Source: Clostridiales bacterium
Lineage (GTDB): Bacteria > Bacillota > Clostridia > Caldicoprobacterales > DTU083
DNA: 32,443 nt
Direction: 5' to 3'
NCBI GenBank assembly: GCA_012838915.1
Contig: DUOI01000045.1
Location: forward strand, 1-32,443
Position 1 is the stretch's first letter; the number at the start of each line of letters is the position of its first letter. The position numbers were made by a program, and so were the translations under genes. Of the stretch, positions 1 to 25,286 are shown one piece after another. Below the pieces are notes generated by a model. That model saw nothing but the letters and a program-made list of their open reading frames with translations. It did no database searches and was not told the DNA's origin.

Positions 1-365
1 AGTTCTATTCTTAGGTCTGTGGTTGAAAATCGATGCCAGTCGCAGGCGAAACGATCCACGTAAGCCGGAAAAATTCCGGTAATCATGGTGCGGCTTAGAT
101 GTAAGTCCGTCCTATAGTTTTGTATCGATGAACTTAAAATTAAATTTCAAGTTTTCGGGCATGTCACAGGTTCCTCTTCTCTTTTGCGCAATACTGCATT
201 TTCCGGAGCTGACACTGGTAACGAATCTTGGTATGAATTTAAGGTTGCATCCTACAAAAATATAGTGAGAAGCAGTAGTAGGAGGGTAAATCCTTGAGCG
301 AGACTTCCTGACGGCGGGTGTGGGGGCAAAGACCAGGTCAGCTAGGATAGAGCGGTAATAACTTA
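1..365 (+). ncRNA. Candidate structured RNA, possibly of the raiA-motif class
   Basis: No convincing reading frame fills this stretch, but it holds many nested helices. At the 5' end, 18-22 pairs with 56-60, 29-32 with 52-55 and 35-37 with 45-47. Then 61-67 can pair with 91-97, competing with a CCGGAA/TTCCGG hairpin at 65-79. A small hairpin joins 131-135 to 149-153. Near the 3' end, 290-294 pairs with 344-348 around 308-312/337-341. A weak closing helix (1-4 with 360-363, 7-9 with 357-359) would make it one molecule. It ends about 25 nt before a zinc-ribbon gene, so it may be a long 5' leader or an independent RNA. The raiA motif is a known clostridial RNA near comF and raiA/hpf; hpf lies 4.3 kb downstream here, so that class is my best guess. 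I did not match it to a covariance model. The 5' boundary may lie outside the window. Confidence 0.5.
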
Positions 366-12330: not shown

Positions 12331-13617
12331 ATGAAAACCATCAACATGAAATTAAAAAGAGCCCTTTTACTATTGTTGAGCTTGATATTGCTTATAGCAT
12401 TATCTTTATACATCACTGCATGCTCGGTATTTGTTTCACAGGCAGCAGCAGAAAATTTAATGGAGGGGGTAAAGCCAGGTGCTGTTGATGGGAAAAAAGT
12501 TGATAACCGGTTTATTGACAATACAGCTGACTTTACCGTAGAGCTTTTTAAAAAATCAATAGACAATAAGAAAAACTCCCTTGTGTCTCCAATTTCCGTG
12601 ATGTTTGCTCTTGCAATGACGGCTAACGGTGCGGACAATCAAACATTGTCCCAAATGGAAAAAGCTCTGGGTAAGGATATTTCCCTTGATGATCTGAACG
12701 AATATCTCCACTATTTTGCAAATAACCTGCCAAATGAGGAAAAATCCAAACTGAAAATTGCCAACTCCATATGGTTTCGTGATGATGAAAATCGTTTAAC
12801 TGTTGAAAAGGATTTCCTTCAGAAGAATGCCGACTATTACGATTCTGAAATCTATAAATCACCCTTTTCGGACCAAACCCTTTTGGAAATTAACAACTGG
12901 GTTAAGACTAGTACGGACGGCATGATAAACAAGATACTTGACGAAATCAAAGATGATGCAGTTATGTATCTGATCAATGCAATTGTTTTTGATGCTGAAT
13001 GGAAAAACGTATATGGAAAGGATGATATATTCCAAGGTGAATTTACATCTCTTGACGGGGCAAAGTCGGTTACTGACTTTATGCGGTCGGAAGAAAGCCT
13101 CTTTTTGGATGATGGTAGCGCAACCGGGTTTATTAAACCCTATTATAATGAAAAATACAGCTTTGCAGCATTGCTTCCCAATGAAGGGGTAAGGATTGAG
13201 GAATATATACAAAATCTTTCAGGGGAAGGTTTATTGAATACAATAAGAAATGCCGATTCTGCGGTAGTATATGCATCCATGCCCAAATTCAGCTATGAGT
13301 TTGAAGTCAAGCTAAATGATGTATTAAAGAGCATGGGCATGCCGGATGGTTTTATTCCGGCAAAGGCTGATTTCACCAGAATGGGTAAATCATCCAGAGG
13401 AAATATCTATATCGGTGAGGTACTCCATAAAACCTTTATTTCGATGGATGAACTGGGCACAAAAGCCGGAGCGGTAACCAAGGTTGAAATGAAAGAAGAA
13501 AGTGCACCTGTGGATTTAAAAACAGTTGCACTGGACCGGCCATTTGTTTTCGCCATAATTGATAACTCAACCCAATTGCCTGTTTTTATCGGTACTGTAA
13601 TGAATCCAAAAGAGTAG
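12331..13617 (+). CDS. Serpin-family protease inhibitor, lipoprotein
   Basis: A 428-residue serpin with a 30-residue signal and lipobox ITAC (Cys31), so it should be tethered outside the membrane. The serpin body starts at FTVELFKK and includes NSLVSPISVMFALAMTANGA, the LYLINAIVFDAEWKN-type breach strand (VMYLINAIVFDAEWK), MPKFSYEFEVKLNDVLKSMGM and the RPFVFAIIDNSTQLPVFIGTV C-terminus. The hinge GTKAGAVTKV (from residue 376) is small-residue rich, as needed for loop insertion, though Lys at the third position replaces the usual Glu. Aligned from the hinge glycine, the scissile bond falls near Glu390-Ser391; the loop is about three residues longer than in antitrypsin, so this is tentative. Likely guards surface proteins from host or competitor proteases. 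Confidence 0.93.
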   Translation: MKTINMKLKRALLLLLSLILLIALSLYITACSVFVSQAAAENLMEGVKPGAVDGKKVDNRFIDNTADFTVELFKKSIDNKKNSLVSPISVMFALAMTANGADNQTLSQMEKALGKDISLDDLNEYLHYFANNLPNEEKSKLKIANSIWFRDDENRLTVEKDFLQKNADYYDSEIYKSPFSDQTLLEINNWVKTSTDGMINKILDEIKDDAVMYLINAIVFDAEWKNVYGKDDIFQGEFTSLDGAKSVTDFMRSEESLFLDDGSATGFIKPYYNEKYSFAALLPNEGVRIEEYIQNLSGEGLLNTIRNADSAVVYASMPKFSYEFEVKLNDVLKSMGMPDGFIPAKADFTRMGKSSRGNIYIGEVLHKTFISMDELGTKAGAVTKVEMKEESAPVDLKTVALDRPFVFAIIDNSTQLPVFIGTVMNPKE

Positions 13618-19096: not shown

Positions 19097-19690
19097 TCAG
19101 TAGTTTTCAACAAAAAGCTCAAAGTGTGCTTGCGGATGCAGGCAGGCAGGGCAGGTCTGCGGAGCAGAAGTTCCTGTATGTATATAACCACATTTTTGAC
19201 AAATCCATTCTACCTGTTCATTTCTCTTGAATACTACTCCGTTTTCTACATTTTCTTTCAACTTAATAAATCTGGTTTCATGTCTTTGTTCTACGTCAGC
19301 AATTTTCAGCCAGGCAGCAGCAATTTCAGGGAATCCTTCTTCTTTGGCCACCCTTGCAAATTCCGGATACAGCTCATCCCATTCTTCCTTTTCGCCGGCT
19401 GCAGCAGCCTTAAGATTTTCCACTGTATTGCCCAGGGCTGCAGGAAACCCTGCTTCGATTTCAACAACGGTGGGAAGCTCATCTTTTAAGCCCTCCGCAA
19501 GAAAATTGAAGAATCTTTTTGCATGCTGGTACTCATTTTCAGCGGTTTCCGTAAACAGGTTGGCAATTTGCCTGTAGCCTTCCTTTTCTGCAACCTTGGC
19601 GTAAATGGTATACCTGTTTCTTGCCTGGGATTCCCCGGCAAAGGATTTCATTAGGTTTTTTCTGGTTTCGGTTCCTTTCAGACTTTTCAA
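19097..19690 (-). CDS. rbr: Rubrerythrin
   Basis: A 197-residue non-haem iron peroxidase that reduces hydrogen peroxide in the anaerobe's cytoplasm. The ferritin-like domain carries the di-iron ligands Glu20, the E53-x-x-H56 pair and E134-x-x-H137. The C-terminal rubredoxin-like domain has Cys164/Cys167 and Cys180/Cys183 to bind one Fe and pass electrons. Length and domain order match classical rubrerythrin. The start is TTG at 19690, supported by AGGAGG about 8 nt upstream. It appears monocistronic with its own terminator, and no rubredoxin or reductase gene is beside it. Confidence 0.96.
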   Translation of the reverse strand: MKSLKGTETRKNLMKSFAGESQARNRYTIYAKVAEKEGYRQIANLFTETAENEYQHAKRFFNFLAEGLKDELPTVVEIEAGFPAALGNTVENLKAAAAGEKEEWDELYPEFARVAKEEGFPEIAAAWLKIADVEQRHETRFIKLKENVENGVVFKRNEQVEWICQKCGYIHTGTSAPQTCPACLHPQAHFELFVENY

Positions 19691-19817: not shown

Positions 19818-20321
19818 TTAATAAGTTTGCAGCTTAGCCACTTGAATGTCCATCATTTTTTTCAGCGGTTTGTATAGGAGCAATACGATGACAAAATTAG
19901 ATGCACCATGAACCAAATCAAAAGTTAAACCGTTAATCCAATATGCAAAGCCGTATGCAAGCCCATAGAAAAAGGATTCCGTTACGGCAAAAAACATGCC
20001 ATAAAAAAAGCCGAACAATGATCCAATAACAGCATAGCCATATTCAGAGCTGATATTTTTACTAAGAGCGCATACGATTAGTACCAATAATGGCCATACA
20101 AGATAGTATCCGATTACCCAGGTGGAGAATCCATATATCAGTATTTCCGTGGTAACAAAAACCACTGTAATCAGCAGACTTCGTTTTAAACCCAGGGTTG
20201 TAGCAAAAATAATAAAAAATAAAGTGACAATTTCAACATTGGGTATAAAACTTAATACCAGCTTGCCGGCAGTGGTGGCCGCACTTAACAAACCAACCAA
20301 AACTATTTCACGAATTCTCAT
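19818..20321 (-). CDS. ECF transporter S component, probably for cobalamin or a precursor
   Basis: A 167-residue protein with five or six hydrophobic helices that resembles energy-coupling-factor substrate-binding (S) components: IREIVLVGLLSAATTAGKLVLSFIPNVE at the N-terminus contains the A-x-x-x-A-type helix used to dock on the shared EcfT, and the body has the FGFFYGMFFAV glycine-rich helix. S components bind a vitamin and topple in the membrane when driven by EcfT and EcfA1/A2, which are not in this window. It is the second gene behind a cobalamin riboswitch, 8 bp after the DUF4430 gene, so B12 or a cobamide precursor is the likely ligand (CblT/CbrT-like by role). Ligand assignment is inferred. 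Confidence 0.8.
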   Translation of the reverse strand: MRIREIVLVGLLSAATTAGKLVLSFIPNVEIVTLFFIIFATTLGLKRSLLITVVFVTTEILIYGFSTWVIGYYLVWPLLVLIVCALSKNISSEYGYAVIGSLFGFFYGMFFAVTESFFYGLAYGFAYWINGLTFDLVHGASNFVIVLLLYKPLKKMMDIQVAKLQTY

Positions 20322-20329
20322 TGTGACCT

Positions 20330-20725
20330 CTAAAAGGCGGTTAGTGTAAATTTGTAGGTATCTCCGTCCTGTATGGGAGTATCATCGGTTCCGACCATAG
20401 AAACTTCTCCATTAACCTCAAACATGAAATACTCACTGTTGGGATCTGCCTTATACTCCGTCAAACCGGTTATCATGGTTCCAATGTTTGTTGATTCATA
20501 TGAAGCACCTAATTTGTCCTGCTGTTCTTTTATCAGATCGGTTAAGAATTCATGATCGGTTTTGAAGGTGAAAGTTTCGTCTATGTCTTCCTTTTCCACT
20601 ACTACCTGTATCGTTACTTCTTTGGAACCTTCTGTTCCCTTGGGAGCTAAAAAAGCCTGGTATCCTGCATAGAGCAGACCAAATATCAATATAACCGATA
20701 TTATCAAAATTATTTTTTTGTTCAT
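20330..20725 (-). CDS. Membrane-anchored DUF4430 (transcobalamin-like) protein
   Basis: A 131-residue protein: one N-terminal helix (about 4-26) with no lipobox Cys, then an extracytoplasmic domain of about 90 residues. That domain has the DUF4430 pattern: VTIQVVVEKEDID, FKTDHEFLTDLIKEQQD, YESTNIGTMITGLTEYKADPNSEYFMFEVNGE, then GTDDTPIQDGDTYKFTLTAF. DUF4430 corresponds to the C-terminal beta domain of intrinsic factor and transcobalamin, which clamps cobalamin. GGAGGT lies about 10 nt before the ATG. It is the first gene after the cobalamin riboswitch and is followed at once by the ECF S component, so it may capture a corrinoid outside the membrane. Homology is judged by pattern only. Confidence 0.82.
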   Translation of the reverse strand: MNKKIILIISVILIFGLLYAGYQAFLAPKGTEGSKEVTIQVVVEKEDIDETFTFKTDHEFLTDLIKEQQDKLGASYESTNIGTMITGLTEYKADPNSEYFMFEVNGEVSMVGTDDTPIQDGDTYKFTLTAF

Positions 20726-20850
20726 ATTTTTCTACCTCCAGTTTTCATCCAAAATTTACTAATGGGTTGCAGTTAATTATTTATGCCATAAATGTAAAAA
20801 TTATATACAACCTCCTTCACATCATGGATTCAACAAAATAAAAAACACAC

Positions 20851-20879
20851 AAAAAACCCTCCAACCTTTGGTTGAAGGG
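20851..20879 (-). terminator. Riboswitch expression-platform terminator
   Basis: On the minus strand a 10-bp stem (20879-20870 with 20866-20857, one G-U pair) closes on a 3-nt loop and is followed by a T6 run, then more T-rich sequence. It lies about 105 nt after the aptamer and about 125 nt before the DUF4430 gene, as expected for transcriptional control. Confidence 0.85.
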
Positions 20880-20984
20880 GGTAGCTGCTGTAAATGGATA
20901 TGCCGGAATTAAAAAATTAATTATTGGTGTAAAACTGCATATTGTACAACACCCCCCATCCCCGTGGAGTTGATAGGTGTTTTC

Positions 20985-21147
20985 GATACAGGCAGGTCTT
21001 CCGGCTGAAGCAAATGAATCTCGATTGGCCTTCCCAGTTGCCCAGTGGCTGCAGCTCTTGGCTGCTTCAATCGTATTGCTATCACGGCGGCGGGACCGCA
21101 CAGGACTTTGACCTGTTTCCCTATTAATGCATGTAGCAACCTGTACC
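20985..21147 (-). promoter_or_regulatory. Cobalamin riboswitch
   Basis: The minus strand carries the conserved cobalamin aptamer. P1 pairs GGTACAGG (21147-21140) with CCTGTATC (20992-20985). The core shows AATAGGGAA, then GGTCAAAGTCC, GCGGTCCCGCC and GTGATAG, then GCCACTGGG and AACTGGGAAGGC, and the B12 box AGCCGGAAGACCTGCC at 21006-20991. A terminator downstream completes an OFF switch, so corrinoid binding should stop transcription of the DUF4430 and ECF genes. Confidence 0.96.
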
Positions 21148-21327
21148 AATTCTTATTTTGTTGTCATGGTTATCATATAATAACTGCCGGCATAAATCAA
21201 TAGCTTTTTAGTAAAAGGATGAAATGCTTCGGTTATATTAATGTGCAGATAAAAATATGTTATAAGGATAATACTACGGTGTATATTAAAATCAAACCAA
21301 TTAAATATTTACAAAAGGGGTGAGCTT

Positions 21328-22347
21328 ATGGCTGCGCAGATTCAGAAAAAAATGCGCATGGAGAACGGTACCCTGCTTTCAATTCTCAAAGCATTTCTAA
21401 GGAAACAGCCTATGATGAGAAGAGTATTGGTTTCACTAATGCCCATCCTTATATTTTCTGTTTATTCTTTTGGATGGAGAGTCCTTTCCCTATTGGCTCT
21501 GGTAACTGCGGCGGGTGTGACAACCGAATATTTTTTTGAAAAATCCAGAAAAGGTAAACCAACCGATTCCATATTGGTAACATGCTTTTTGTATACATTG
21601 ATTTTGCCGGTAACCATACCTTACTGGATTGCTGCAGCAGGAGTTATATTTGCCGTTGTTTTCGGTAAGCAGGTATTTGGAGGATTCGCCAGAAATGTTT
21701 TTAATCCTGCCATATTGGGTCGGGTATTTGTATTCATTACATTCCCTGCTGCTATGACCAATAGCTGGACGCAGCCTTTTACCGGTTTTCCCGGCGGTTT
21801 TGTCAGATGGGTTCCGGAATTAACAGACGGCATCAGCAGTGCCACACCCCTGGCTGCAGCTGCTCAGGGCAACTCCCTCAACTCCCTGCCAACCCACCTT
21901 CAATTGCTGCTTGGGAACACTTCCGGTTCCATGGGGGAGATTAGTGCAGTATTGATCCTGCTTGCCGGTATATATTTAATTGTTAAAAAGACCGCATCCT
22001 GGAAAATCATTTCTTCTGTTCTGGCAGGGGTTCTGGGTATGGAAGCCATATTTTATTTTTCAGGTATTTCCCGTTTTCCTGATCCACTCTACGCAATATT
22101 GTCAGGCGGTGTATTATTTGGTGCCGTGTTTATGGCAACTGATCCCATTACAGCTCCGTCCACGGATCCAGGGAAATGGTTATTTGGTTTTCTGGTCGGT
22201 ATAGTAGCAGTGTTTATTCGAGAATTCTCCCTGTTCCCGGAAGGAATGATGTTTGCCATCCTGATTATGAACTCTTTTGTACCTTTGCTGGATATTGCAG
22301 TCAAATCTGTTAAGGCCAATGCAGCAAAAAGGAGGGTTGCCGCATGA
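21328..22347 (+). CDS. NQR/RNF complex subunit NqrB/RnfD
   Basis: A 339-residue membrane subunit with about ten helices, the ion-translocating core of Na+-NQR and RNF pumps. The family segment GKQVFGGFARNVFNPAILGR is present. The flavinylation motif SSATPL places the covalent FMN on Thr173. Length is nearer RnfD (about 350) than NqrB (about 410), as it lacks the NqrB N-terminal extension. AAAGGGG precedes the ATG. It is the first of six co-oriented, overlapping genes, divergent from the cobalamin-switched pair. Confidence 0.93.
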   Translation: MAAQIQKKMRMENGTLLSILKAFLRKQPMMRRVLVSLMPILIFSVYSFGWRVLSLLALVTAAGVTTEYFFEKSRKGKPTDSILVTCFLYTLILPVTIPYWIAAAGVIFAVVFGKQVFGGFARNVFNPAILGRVFVFITFPAAMTNSWTQPFTGFPGGFVRWVPELTDGISSATPLAAAAQGNSLNSLPTHLQLLLGNTSGSMGEISAVLILLAGIYLIVKKTASWKIISSVLAGVLGMEAIFYFSGISRFPDPLYAILSGGVLFGAVFMATDPITAPSTDPGKWLFGFLVGIVAVFIREFSLFPEGMMFAILIMNSFVPLLDIAVKSVKANAAKRRVAA

Positions 22348-22949
22348 AGGATAAAGCATGGTTCAACCTGGTATTTATGCTGATCTGTACCGCATTATTT
22401 ACAGGCATCCTTTCCGGTTTTTATGTTTATTCCCGCCCGCAGATTTCTGCCAATGCTCGGTTGAATGAAATAACTGCTCAATTAAATGCTTTAAATATTG
22501 TGATACCTGCCGGCATGAGCTCAACAGACCTGGAATTATACTATGAGCAGCATATTGTTGTAAAGAATATGAACGGTTTCGACGTATATCAATATGAAAC
22601 AAATGATGGCAGTATATACTATGCAATTCCCTTTGAAGGAGCCGGCCTGTGGGGCGACATCACCGGAATCATTGCACTTGATCAGGAACTGAAAACTGTT
22701 GTAGGTATGGACTTCGTTTCCCAGAATGAAACGCCGGGCCTGGGAGGGCGTATCCAAGAGGATTGGTTCAAGGAACAGTTCCGGGGCATTACCCTGTATA
22801 GCGATGGTGACTTAATCCGCTATGCTGCTGCAGGCAGTGAAGGTCAGGTGGATGCTATTACCGGAGCAACAGCCACATCATCTGCTGTAATCGATATTTT
22901 AAATGAATCCATAAAGCAGGCAAAAACCAGAATAGGGGGTGACAATTGA
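22344..22949 (+). CDS. NQR/RNF complex subunit NqrC/RnfG
   Basis: A 201-residue subunit with one N-terminal helix (about 8-28) and an extracytoplasmic FMN domain that relays electrons across the outer face. ITGATATS (172-179) is the flavinylation motif, with FMN expected on Thr176; GLWG (101-104) and NETPGLGG (128-135) are family signatures. It overlaps the upstream gene by 4 bp (ATGA). ApbE, the enzyme that attaches the FMN, is not coded in the window. Confidence 0.95.
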   Translation: MKDKAWFNLVFMLICTALFTGILSGFYVYSRPQISANARLNEITAQLNALNIVIPAGMSSTDLELYYEQHIVVKNMNGFDVYQYETNDGSIYYAIPFEGAGLWGDITGIIALDQELKTVVGMDFVSQNETPGLGGRIQEDWFKEQFRGITLYSDGDLIRYAAAGSEGQVDAITGATATSSAVIDILNESIKQAKTRIGGDN

Positions 22950-23596
22950 TGGCCTCTCAATACAGGGAAATTGCAAAAAAGACTCTATGGAGTGATAACC
23001 CGGTAATAAAGCAGATTCTGGGTATTTGTTCCGCACTGGCTGTTACCAACCTGGTATCCAATACATTGGTTATGGGAATAGGCGTGGCGCTGGTAACTGC
23101 ATTTTCCAGTCTTACGGTATCTGCACTGCGCAATATCATTCCCATAAGGGTCAGGATGATGGTTCAAACACTGATTATTGCCTTTTATGTAATTATTGTA
23201 GATATAATTCTGCGAGCCTATTACCCGGATATGAGCAGAGCTTTAGGGCCTTATGTAGGTTTGATTATTACCAATTGCATTATAATGGGCCGATGTGAAG
23301 CCTTTGCCCAAGCAAACAAGCCCCTTCTGTCCTTTTATGACGGTTTCATGTCTGGAATGGGATATACCCTTATTTTAACTATCATTGCGGTAGTTCGGGA
23401 GCTTATGGGCTTTGGCACCATTCTGGGTTTTCGCATACTTGGTGACTGGTGGACGCCGTGGACAATTATGGTAATGGCTCCCAGTGCTTTTTTTGTACTG
23501 GCATCCATAATATGGGTTGCAAATTCTTTGACTGTTAGCAAAGAAAAAGCAGCCGGGCAATCAATAAGCAGGGGGGTGCAGACAAGTGGGAATTAG
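22949..23596 (+). CDS. NQR/RNF complex subunit NqrD/RnfE
   Basis: A 215-residue protein of about six helices. Together with NqrE it forms the pseudo-symmetric pair holding the intramembrane iron-sulfur centre; the two expected Cys ligands are Cys27 (LGICSAL) and Cys110 (ITNCIIMGRCEAF). NPVIKQILGICSALAVTN and GRCEAFA are family hallmarks. The ATG at 22949 is preferred to a TTG at 22946 because GGGGGTGA lies too close to the latter. It overlaps the genes on both sides. Confidence 0.95.
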   Translation: MASQYREIAKKTLWSDNPVIKQILGICSALAVTNLVSNTLVMGIGVALVTAFSSLTVSALRNIIPIRVRMMVQTLIIAFYVIIVDIILRAYYPDMSRALGPYVGLIITNCIIMGRCEAFAQANKPLLSFYDGFMSGMGYTLILTIIAVVRELMGFGTILGFRILGDWWTPWTIMVMAPSAFFVLASIIWVANSLTVSKEKAAGQSISRGVQTSGN

Positions 23597-24173
23597 TCCT
23601 TTTGTCATATTTTTCGCTTCAATCTTTACCAGCAATGTGCTGCTGACAAATTTTCTGGGAATGTGTTCCTACCTGTCCATTTCCAAGGACCTGAAGTCTT
23701 CTTTGGGACTGGGGGAGGCAGTAATATTTGTCATGACGGTAACATCGGTTTTGAACTATTTGGTATATCAGTACATATTGGTGCCTTTTGAACTGGAATA
23801 CCTGAGATTCATTGTATTCATAATAGTAATCGCTGCTTTTGTCCAGCTGGTGGAAATGATACTGGAACGTTTCATGCCCAATCTGTACTATACCCTGGGA
23901 ATTTTCCTTCCTTTAATTACGGTAAATTGTGCAATATTAGGCGTAGCTTTGTTCATTGTTATTAGGGAATACAATTTTCTTCAGTCCCTTGCCTATGGGG
24001 CGGGCGGAGGCATTGGCTGGACCCTGGCTATTCTGGCCTTGGCCGGAATCAGGCAAAAGGTGGATGAGACCAAAATACCAAAGGGTCTGCAGGGGGCAGG
24101 CTTTGCAATGATTGTTACCGGTATCATGGCATTGGCTTTTATCGGGTTTTCCGGTATTCTTGCCATCCAGTAG
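23586..24173 (+). CDS. NQR/RNF complex subunit NqrE/RnfA
   Basis: A 195-residue protein of about six helices, partner of NqrD/RnfE in the membrane core. Cys27 (FLGMCSYL) and Cys115 (TVNCAILG) are the conserved ligands of the shared iron centre. LTNFLGMCSYLSISKDL and LPLITVNCAILGVALF are family hallmarks. The GTG start at 23586 follows a GGGGGGTG site and overlaps the previous gene by 11 bp, implying coupled translation. Confidence 0.95.
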   Translation: MGISPFVIFFASIFTSNVLLTNFLGMCSYLSISKDLKSSLGLGEAVIFVMTVTSVLNYLVYQYILVPFELEYLRFIVFIIVIAAFVQLVEMILERFMPNLYYTLGIFLPLITVNCAILGVALFIVIREYNFLQSLAYGAGGGIGWTLAILALAGIRQKVDETKIPKGLQGAGFAMIVTGIMALAFIGFSGILAIQ

Positions 24174-24185
24174 GGGGGAAGAATT

Positions 24186-25286
24186 ATGGCAGTGGAAGTT
24201 ATAAGGACTGTTTCTATTGTTTCCGGTATCGGCGTATTTCTTGCTGCACTGTTAACCCTGGCAGAACGCTTCCTGCTGAATTATGGAATGTGCAAAATCA
24301 CCATCAACAATGACAGGGAGTTGGAAGTAAAGGGAGGCAATCATCTGCTTGGCAGCTTGCTGCAAAACGGGATTTTCATTCCCTCAGCCTGTGGCGGCCG
24401 TGGCAGCTGCGGGCTTTGCAAGGTAAAGGTGATTTCGGGAGGCGGGCCGCTTCTCTCCACCGAAACCCCCTATCTCACCAAGGAAGAGCAGGAAGATAAT
24501 ATCCGTTTGTCCTGCCAGGTGAAGGTAAGGGAGGATGTGGCAATTGAAATACCGGAAGAGCTTTTCAGCATCAGGGAATATACCACAACGGTAGAAAAAA
24601 TAGTGGACCTTACTTATGACACAAAAGCCCTGTACCTCCGGTTGAAGGATGGAGAAGAGTTAAGCTTTAAGGCAGGACAGTATGTGCAGATTAAAGTGCC
24701 CCAATATGGAAAAGTCACAGAGGAAGTATACAGGGCTTACTCCATTGCTTCCTCCCCCCTGCAAAAGGAAATGATTAAGCTTATCATCCGACGGGTGCCC
24801 CATGGAATATGCACCACCTATATATTTGACTATTTGAAAGAGGGAGACAAACTTGACCTGAACGGTCCACACGGTGACTTCTTCCTTAGGGAATCCGACC
24901 GGGAAATGATTTGCATTGCAGGGGGTTCCGGCCTGGCACCTATCAACTCCATTCTTTATGAGATAAGGGATAAAAATATCAGGCGGAAAGCAACCTTTTT
25001 CTTTGGATGTGTCGAAAAACGGGACCTATATTATACGGATGAAATGAAGGCTTTTGAGAAGCAGATTCCGGATTTCCGCTTTGTTCCGGCGCTGTCCGCA
25101 CCCAGGGAAGCAGACAATTGGCCGGGGGAGGTCGGACTGATTACCGAGGTAGTGGATCGATATATAACCGACGGCTCCGGCATGGAAGCATACCTGTGCG
25201 GTAGCCCCGGAATGATTGATGCCTGTATCCAGGTGCTGCTTCAAAAGGGAATTCCGGAGGACAGAATCTATTACGATAAATTCTGA
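24186..25286 (+). CDS. nqrF: NqrF: NADH-oxidising 2Fe-2S/FAD subunit
   Basis: The 366-residue electron-input subunit. One N-terminal helix (about 8-30) anchors it. A plant-type ferredoxin domain has Cys69, Cys75, Cys78 and Cys110 (CGGRGSCGLC, then LSC). An FNR-type reductase follows with FAD motif RAYSIASSP (183-191), GPHGDFF (227-233), NAD-binding GGSGLAPI (246-253) and LCGSPGMIDA (337-346). This identifies the operon as NQR-like at its input end, because RNF uses RnfB and RnfC instead. It is about 40 residues shorter than the Vibrio protein. The GGGGGGAAG site is 6 nt before the ATG. No nqrA is encoded in the operon. Confidence 0.95.
   Translation: MAVEVIRTVSIVSGIGVFLAALLTLAERFLLNYGMCKITINNDRELEVKGGNHLLGSLLQNGIFIPSACGGRGSCGLCKVKVISGGGPLLSTETPYLTKEEQEDNIRLSCQVKVREDVAIEIPEELFSIREYTTTVEKIVDLTYDTKALYLRLKDGEELSFKAGQYVQIKVPQYGKVTEEVYRAYSIASSPLQKEMIKLIIRRVPHGICTTYIFDYLKEGDKLDLNGPHGDFFLRESDREMICIAGGSGLAPINSILYEIRDKNIRRKATFFFGCVEKRDLYYTDEMKAFEKQIPDFRFVPALSAPREADNWPGEVGLITEVVDRYITDGSGMEAYLCGSPGMIDACIQVLLQKGIPEDRIYYDKF

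Follow-up and report, generated by a model that had tools for sequence, protein, structure and literature searches.

A cobalamin riboswitch heads a probable CbrT-type corrinoid importer with a tethered transcobalamin-beta-like domain in a clostridial genome

What is carried by a two-gene transport unit that stands behind a cobalamin riboswitch, and what part is played in it by a relative of the vitamin B12 carriers of animals? The question is raised by a locus in the window analysed here (the whole 32,443-nt contig DUOI01000045.1 of a Clostridiales bacterium), where the genes for a membrane-anchored DUF4430 protein and for a solitary S component of an ECF transporter follow each other on the minus strand. 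A 2019 survey of gut genomes described the identification of B12 transport systems as an open problem (PMC6593275). The two genes probably form a corrinoid importer of the CbrT (ECF) type that is repressed by cobalamin and in which a transcobalamin-beta-like domain serves as a tethered accessory.

The riboswitch aptamer (nt 20974 – 21159, minus strand) is full length, matching RF00174 over model positions 1–189 at 86.5 bits (cmscan, E 3e-20; gathering score 31.5 bits), and an RF00174 search of the 2.18-Mb genome found one cobalamin riboswitch, at this locus. Between the aptamer and the DUF4430 gene, a pattern scan located an intrinsic terminator (nt 20857 – 20879, minus strand; CCCTTCAACC-AAA-GGTTGGAGGG-TTTTTT), which, read from 20879 to 20857, consists of a 10-bp stem, an AAA loop and a TTTTTT tail, with a folding energy of -14.6 kcal/mol. 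It is likely to be the expression platform of the riboswitch, and a crude scan of the 44 relatives headed by a riboswitch picked out a terminator-like element in 38. Both elements had been called clear in a sequence-only reading of this locus, and the scores agree; the span given there (19818 – 21147) covers both genes but stops 12 nt inside the aptamer, which starts at 21159. The two ORFs are separated by just 8 nt, with the DUF4430 gene first, and the sequence supports riboswitch control of both. A promoter scan of the locus returned matches at chance level and was ignored.

The DUF4430 gene (nt 20330 – 20725, minus strand) is the only one found in the genome and encodes a protein of 131 aa that matches PF14478 with 36.7 bits (E 6e-9, cut-off 23.8 bits). 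Two lysines at the N-terminus are followed by a hydrophobic helix, the predicted membrane anchor (approximately residues 4–25), and by a transcobalamin-beta-like domain of about 99 residues (approximately 33–131). A structure model (pLDDT 92.5) shows a beta-grasp domain, for which the closest solved structure is RUMGNA_00854 of Ruminococcus gnavus (PDB 3u7z; Z 17.2, 1.2 Å). Transcobalamin, haptocorrin and intrinsic factor follow with Z scores of 14.1–15.6, mostly at 1.7–2.1 Å over 97–102 residues, and there is then a clear gap to the first other fold, Urm1 (Z 8.5). The same three carriers are also reached by sequence, as a profile built from 47 DUF4430 partners matches them with E values of 5e-4 to 0.03. 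As judged from sequence and model, the domain is kin to the beta domain of transcobalamin, and the relationship to the B12-clamping domain of animals proposed in the sequence-only reading is borne out by the Pfam match, the fold scores (Z 14–15.6) and the profile.

The animal beta domain (PF14478/SLBB) and the DUF4430 domain have in common not only the fold but an inserted hairpin, although they are just 10–18% identical (approximately), and the bacterial protein differs in being anchored in the membrane and in having no alpha/alpha toroid half. In the model, the hairpin (strands 75–79 and 82–88) is inserted after the helix (helices 61–67 and 69–72), and the equivalent hairpin of transcobalamin makes many ligand contacts (PMC1796856). 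A glycine of the hairpin (G82) is kept in 44 of 47 relatives, and one in the connector between strands 4 and 5 (G112) in 42 of 47. At transcobalamin positions 359 and 362, where the animal carriers have bulky aromatics (PMC4350170), the window protein has I81 and M84, which are bulky but not aromatic, and most DUF4430 relatives have F/Y/L and M/Y/F, respectively. As to the R. gnavus structure, it was deposited as a putative metal-binding protein under an entry title that makes no link to B12. It is probably a partner in a corrinoid system; a relative in Mediterraneibacter (L183:5597–5986) is encoded directly before an S gene of the CbrT family.

The S component gene (nt 19818 – 20321, minus strand) encodes 167 aa and was assigned to the CbrT family by family profile, tree and S-component fold. 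Its match to PF12822 (E 0.0016) falls under the curated cut-off, and a search of NCBIfam gave no match for either protein of the pair. The AlphaFold model (pLDDT 94.8) resembles solved ECF S components with Z scores of 11–15, relative to 9.5 for the best other fold. Comparison of folds was rejected as a guide to the vitamin carried, as the solved S components all score alike in this range, and a sequence profile and a tree were used for that assignment instead. When the family profile was compared with every PDB chain, the only S component matched was CbrT of Lactobacillus delbrueckii (PDB 6fnp), with E values of 7e-13 (12 sequences) and 7e-22 (57 sequences). Motifs common to the two proteins are IPNV..VT, GF..W and AYW..GL.FD..H.

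A maximum-likelihood tree was calculated from the window S component, its relatives, CbrT, DUF4430-linked S proteins of other Bacillota and 50 other S components of the order, drawn from two Pfam families. The first four groups fall on one side of a branch with 100/99 support, and 49 of the 50 other S components lie outside this CbrT clade, the exception (L331) coming from a genome with a large DUF4430 protein. The finer order within the clade is unsure because some branches are long. The phylogeny could have placed the S component with another vitamin, but groups it with CbrT instead, and, together with the profile, supports the view that it belongs with CbrT and is of corrinoid type, as had been suggested from the sequence.

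The prediction of CbrT dates from 2009, and its transport of cobalamin and cobinamide was proven in 2018 (PMC5997447). ECF-CbrT (Santos 2018, PMC5997447) resembles the system described here in S-component fold and family, in loop motifs and in the use of a shared ECF module. The window S component is, however, only 24.5% identical to CbrT, and its gene is directly preceded by a DUF4430 gene and a cobalamin riboswitch. The S components of seven small pairs from other Bacillota are closer, with 33–39% identity to CbrT.

A close relative of the S gene (60–100% identity) is present in 13 of 30 genomes of the order, and in all 13 the DUF4430 gene lies directly upstream. In 12 of these the riboswitch completes the triad, and in the remaining one the contig stops shortly upstream. 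A wider survey of 84,980 species genomes recovered 77 loci homologous to the S gene, and a DUF4430 partner was directly upstream in 75 of them, with a median gap of 1 nt; of the other two, one lies at a contig edge, and in one the S frame is short and no ORF precedes it. A first-pass profile detected the partner in 47 of the 77 loci, and an iterated profile over the upstream ORFs raised this to 75. Pfam recognised only 3 of 10 sampled divergent partners and missed 7, so that at the greatest distances a partner is called DUF4430 by the iterated profile together with its position and lipobox. As a control, the surroundings of 50 other S components of the order were searched for a DUF4430 gene or a B12 box, and none (0/50) had either. 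The pairing is an arrangement far beyond chance, and the two-protein device envisaged in the sequence-only reading corresponds to a conserved unit. The partners carry an N-terminal helix in 46 cases and, in other clades, a lipobox in 29, so it is tethering on the outside of the cell that is conserved. One clostridial-type pair was found on a 1.49-Mb contig labelled Alistipes (L174, JAMPAJ010000001.1), a label that may be wrong.

Co-occurrence behind B12 riboswitches, a survey that had been proposed for this locus, was scored over the same loci. A riboswitch-like B12 box precedes 44 of the 77 pairs (28 of the 31 closest and 16 of the 46 more distant); outside the Rfam-scored loci the boxes were found by a motif scan, which gave the same result as Rfam wherever the two were compared. 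Among the distant pairs 30 have no box, and 14 of these are beside genes for MetH, URO-D type proteins, corrinoid proteins or BtuR. These pairs without a riboswitch adjoin either MetH (L182, L185, L190, L191, L193, L195, L198, L208) or URO-D, corrinoid protein or BtuR genes (L171, L172, L175, L177, L178, L183). MetH is the B12-dependent methionine synthase and BtuR the corrinoid adenosyltransferase. At the other end of the pair, a rubrerythrin gene (nt 19097 – 19690, minus strand) is found after the S gene in the window as well as in six relatives from the same family (L004–L009); no link to B12 was seen, and inclusion of this gene in a single operon with the pair was rejected in favour of synteny only.

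The following sequence of events may be proposed. When cobalamin is scarce the aptamer would be empty, the terminator would not form and both genes would be read, a behaviour expected of this class of riboswitch with such a terminator. The S component would bind cobalamin or cobinamide from the outside, and the shared EcfA-EcfA'-EcfT module would topple it within the membrane, releasing the corrinoid inside, in the manner of the CbrT family; the genome does encode the module. The DUF4430 domain, fixed at the outer face by its N-terminal helix, would most likely bind the corrinoid first and present it to the S component. The model for this early capture is provided by the animal carriers, in which B12 binds to the beta domain ahead of closure by the alpha domain (PMC11107200). 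On its own, the human beta domain has been crystallised with cyanocobalamin and with cobinamide bound, and assembly of the alpha and beta domains is B12-dependent (PMC5599065). Capture by the tethered domain and hand-off to the S component is the best candidate mechanism, proposed by analogy; a search of the open-access literature found no binding or transport datum for any DUF4430-S pair.

The CbrT protein from L. delbrueckii has by itself an affinity of about 9 nM for B12, and transports it in assay without a DUF4430 partner (PMC5997447), so that a capture domain is not obviously needed. It is conceivable, if rather unlikely, that the S component alone imports the corrinoid and that the DUF4430 protein binds no corrinoid, but stabilises the S component or assists it in docking with the ECF module or in toppling. 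The tight coupling of the genes would be equally expected of a structural partner, and the isoleucine and methionine of the window protein stand where the animal carriers have bulky aromatics. On the other hand, the DUF4430 protein still has the fold of a protein dedicated to B12 binding, and with it the hairpin that contacts the ligand (PMC1796856), the glycines of the hairpin and of the strand 4–5 connector are kept in 44/47 and 42/47 relatives, and larger relatives join DUF4430 to an alpha/alpha toroid, which is the other half of the animal clamp.

Capture and hand-off, the preferred reading, has a more speculative variant, to be held only tentatively, in which the two proteins would make up a split clamp for the corrinoid, with the S component in the place of the alpha/alpha toroid. 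B12 would then be held between the DUF4430 lid and the S component before toppling. If so, ECF transport would here involve an extracellular lid dedicated to substrate binding, for which, to our knowledge, no precedent has been described among ECF systems.

The rest of the genome (2.18 Mb in 149 contigs, 96.9% completeness) was checked family by family. A FecCD-type permease (BtuC) was not matched in this assembly, where an unseen BtuFCD is possible given its 149 contigs and 96.9% completeness, and CbiD was matched neither here nor in any of the 30 genomes of the order. Five B12-binding matches were found, including a corrinoid protein of the methyltransferase type. A shared EcfA-EcfA'-EcfT module is encoded beside truA-rplM-rpsI, elsewhere in the genome, and it is this module that the solitary S component must borrow. 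The pair is the only candidate corrinoid importer seen, and is very probably the corrinoid importer of a B12-dependent bacterium.

Import of a related ligand instead of cobalamin (cobinamide, another cobamide, a free lower-ligand base, or a tetrapyrrole such as haem) is improbable. The identity to the proven CbrT is low (24.5%), CbrT also carries cobinamide, and there is a report of an ECF transporter for haem (PMC7299338). Haemin, however, did not compete for ECF-CbrT (PMC5997447), and the pair is controlled by a cobalamin riboswitch, has a partner with the fold of a B12 carrier, and is the sole candidate corrinoid importer seen in a genome that has B12-binding proteins and no match to CbiD.

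Across the order the riboswitch mostly heads the triad, a BtuFCD operon or a large DUF4430 cassette, and the triad and riboswitch-headed BtuFCD operons are largely mutually exclusive. A riboswitch-headed BtuC occurs in 1 of 13 triad genomes relative to 11 of 17 others (12 of 17 with one that is split at a contig end), giving p 0.002, or 0.0008 with the split case counted, in a test that ignores relatedness. This near-exclusion indicates that a whole ABC importer has been replaced. The sequence-only reading, which spoke of a replacement of BtuF and made no mention of the shared ECF module, was imprecise, for it is the whole of BtuFCD and not BtuF alone that has given way within this order.

DUF4430 is not confined to small pairs. 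Of the 398 genomes sampled from the phylum, 126 contain it, and of 67 loci examined, 54 have an EcfT gene or an S gene belonging to the families encountered in this work and 35 have a B12 box. Many are large cassettes, and those that were fully read consist of a riboswitch, surface proteins with toroid and DUF4430 domains, EcfT, a fused EcfAA and an S gene. Animal transcobalamin likewise joins a toroid to a DUF4430 domain (PMC1796856), and four riboswitch-headed cassettes of this kind (L098, L103, L107, L116) encode bacterial proteins with that two-domain make-up. The window unit is the minimal form, with one small beta domain and a solitary S gene. That the tethered DUF4430 protein is a general surface scavenger of B12 for any importer, lying beside the S gene for co-regulation only, is very unlikely: large surface DUF4430 proteins do occur in several copies per genome in other Bacillota, but the small form adjoins this S family in 75/77 loci and 0/50 other S genes, and most triad genomes are without another riboswitch-headed importer.

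Scavenging of B12 by bacterial transcobalamin-like domains is not a new proposal. Burroughs 2007 predicted that bacterial transcobalamin-like SLBB proteins act in this way together with CbiO/CbiQ-type genes (PMC1796856). Those cassettes likewise combine a DUF4430 surface protein with ECF-type transport genes, in hosts short of B12 synthesis genes. They differ from the window unit in that, in the loci read here, they have large toroid-DUF4430 proteins and their own EcfT, fused EcfAA and S genes, rather than a small domain and a solitary S component. In Lacticaseibacillus rhamnosus, a protein is labelled 'Additional lipoprotein component of putative cobalamin ECF transporter' (PMC9963975), which is the same proposed role, by annotation only. 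The same paper separately names a DUF4430 protein beside rtpR, which may or may not be the labelled lipoprotein.

The observation is well supported, and the pair is of a kind that is known but biochemically unproven. What is added in the current study is the link, with controls, between small DUF4430 domains and the CbrT family, the structural match, the anchoring pattern and the replacement of BtuFCD inside one bacterial order. Three lines, namely the 2007 prediction, the proven CbrT transporter and an orphan 'metal-binding' structure, are joined in one two-gene unit, and likely functions can be offered for DUF4430-S pairs in many genomes. The unit also points to a bacterial counterpart of the beta half of the animal B12 carriers, one that works with a membrane transporter.

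Three other features of the window may be recorded. A divergent operon (nt 21328 – 25286, plus strand) carries NqrB/RnfD-, NqrC/RnfG-, NqrD-, NqrE/RnfA- and NqrF-like genes, for which the RnfD, NqrD and NqrF models reach their curated cut-offs; NqrA, RnfB and RnfC were not seen beside it. A raiA RNA (RF03072; nt 5 – 350, plus strand) scores 160 bits and has a long insertion relative to the model. Finally, this clostridial genome encodes a full serpin domain (nt 12331 – 13617, plus strand; E 2e-87).
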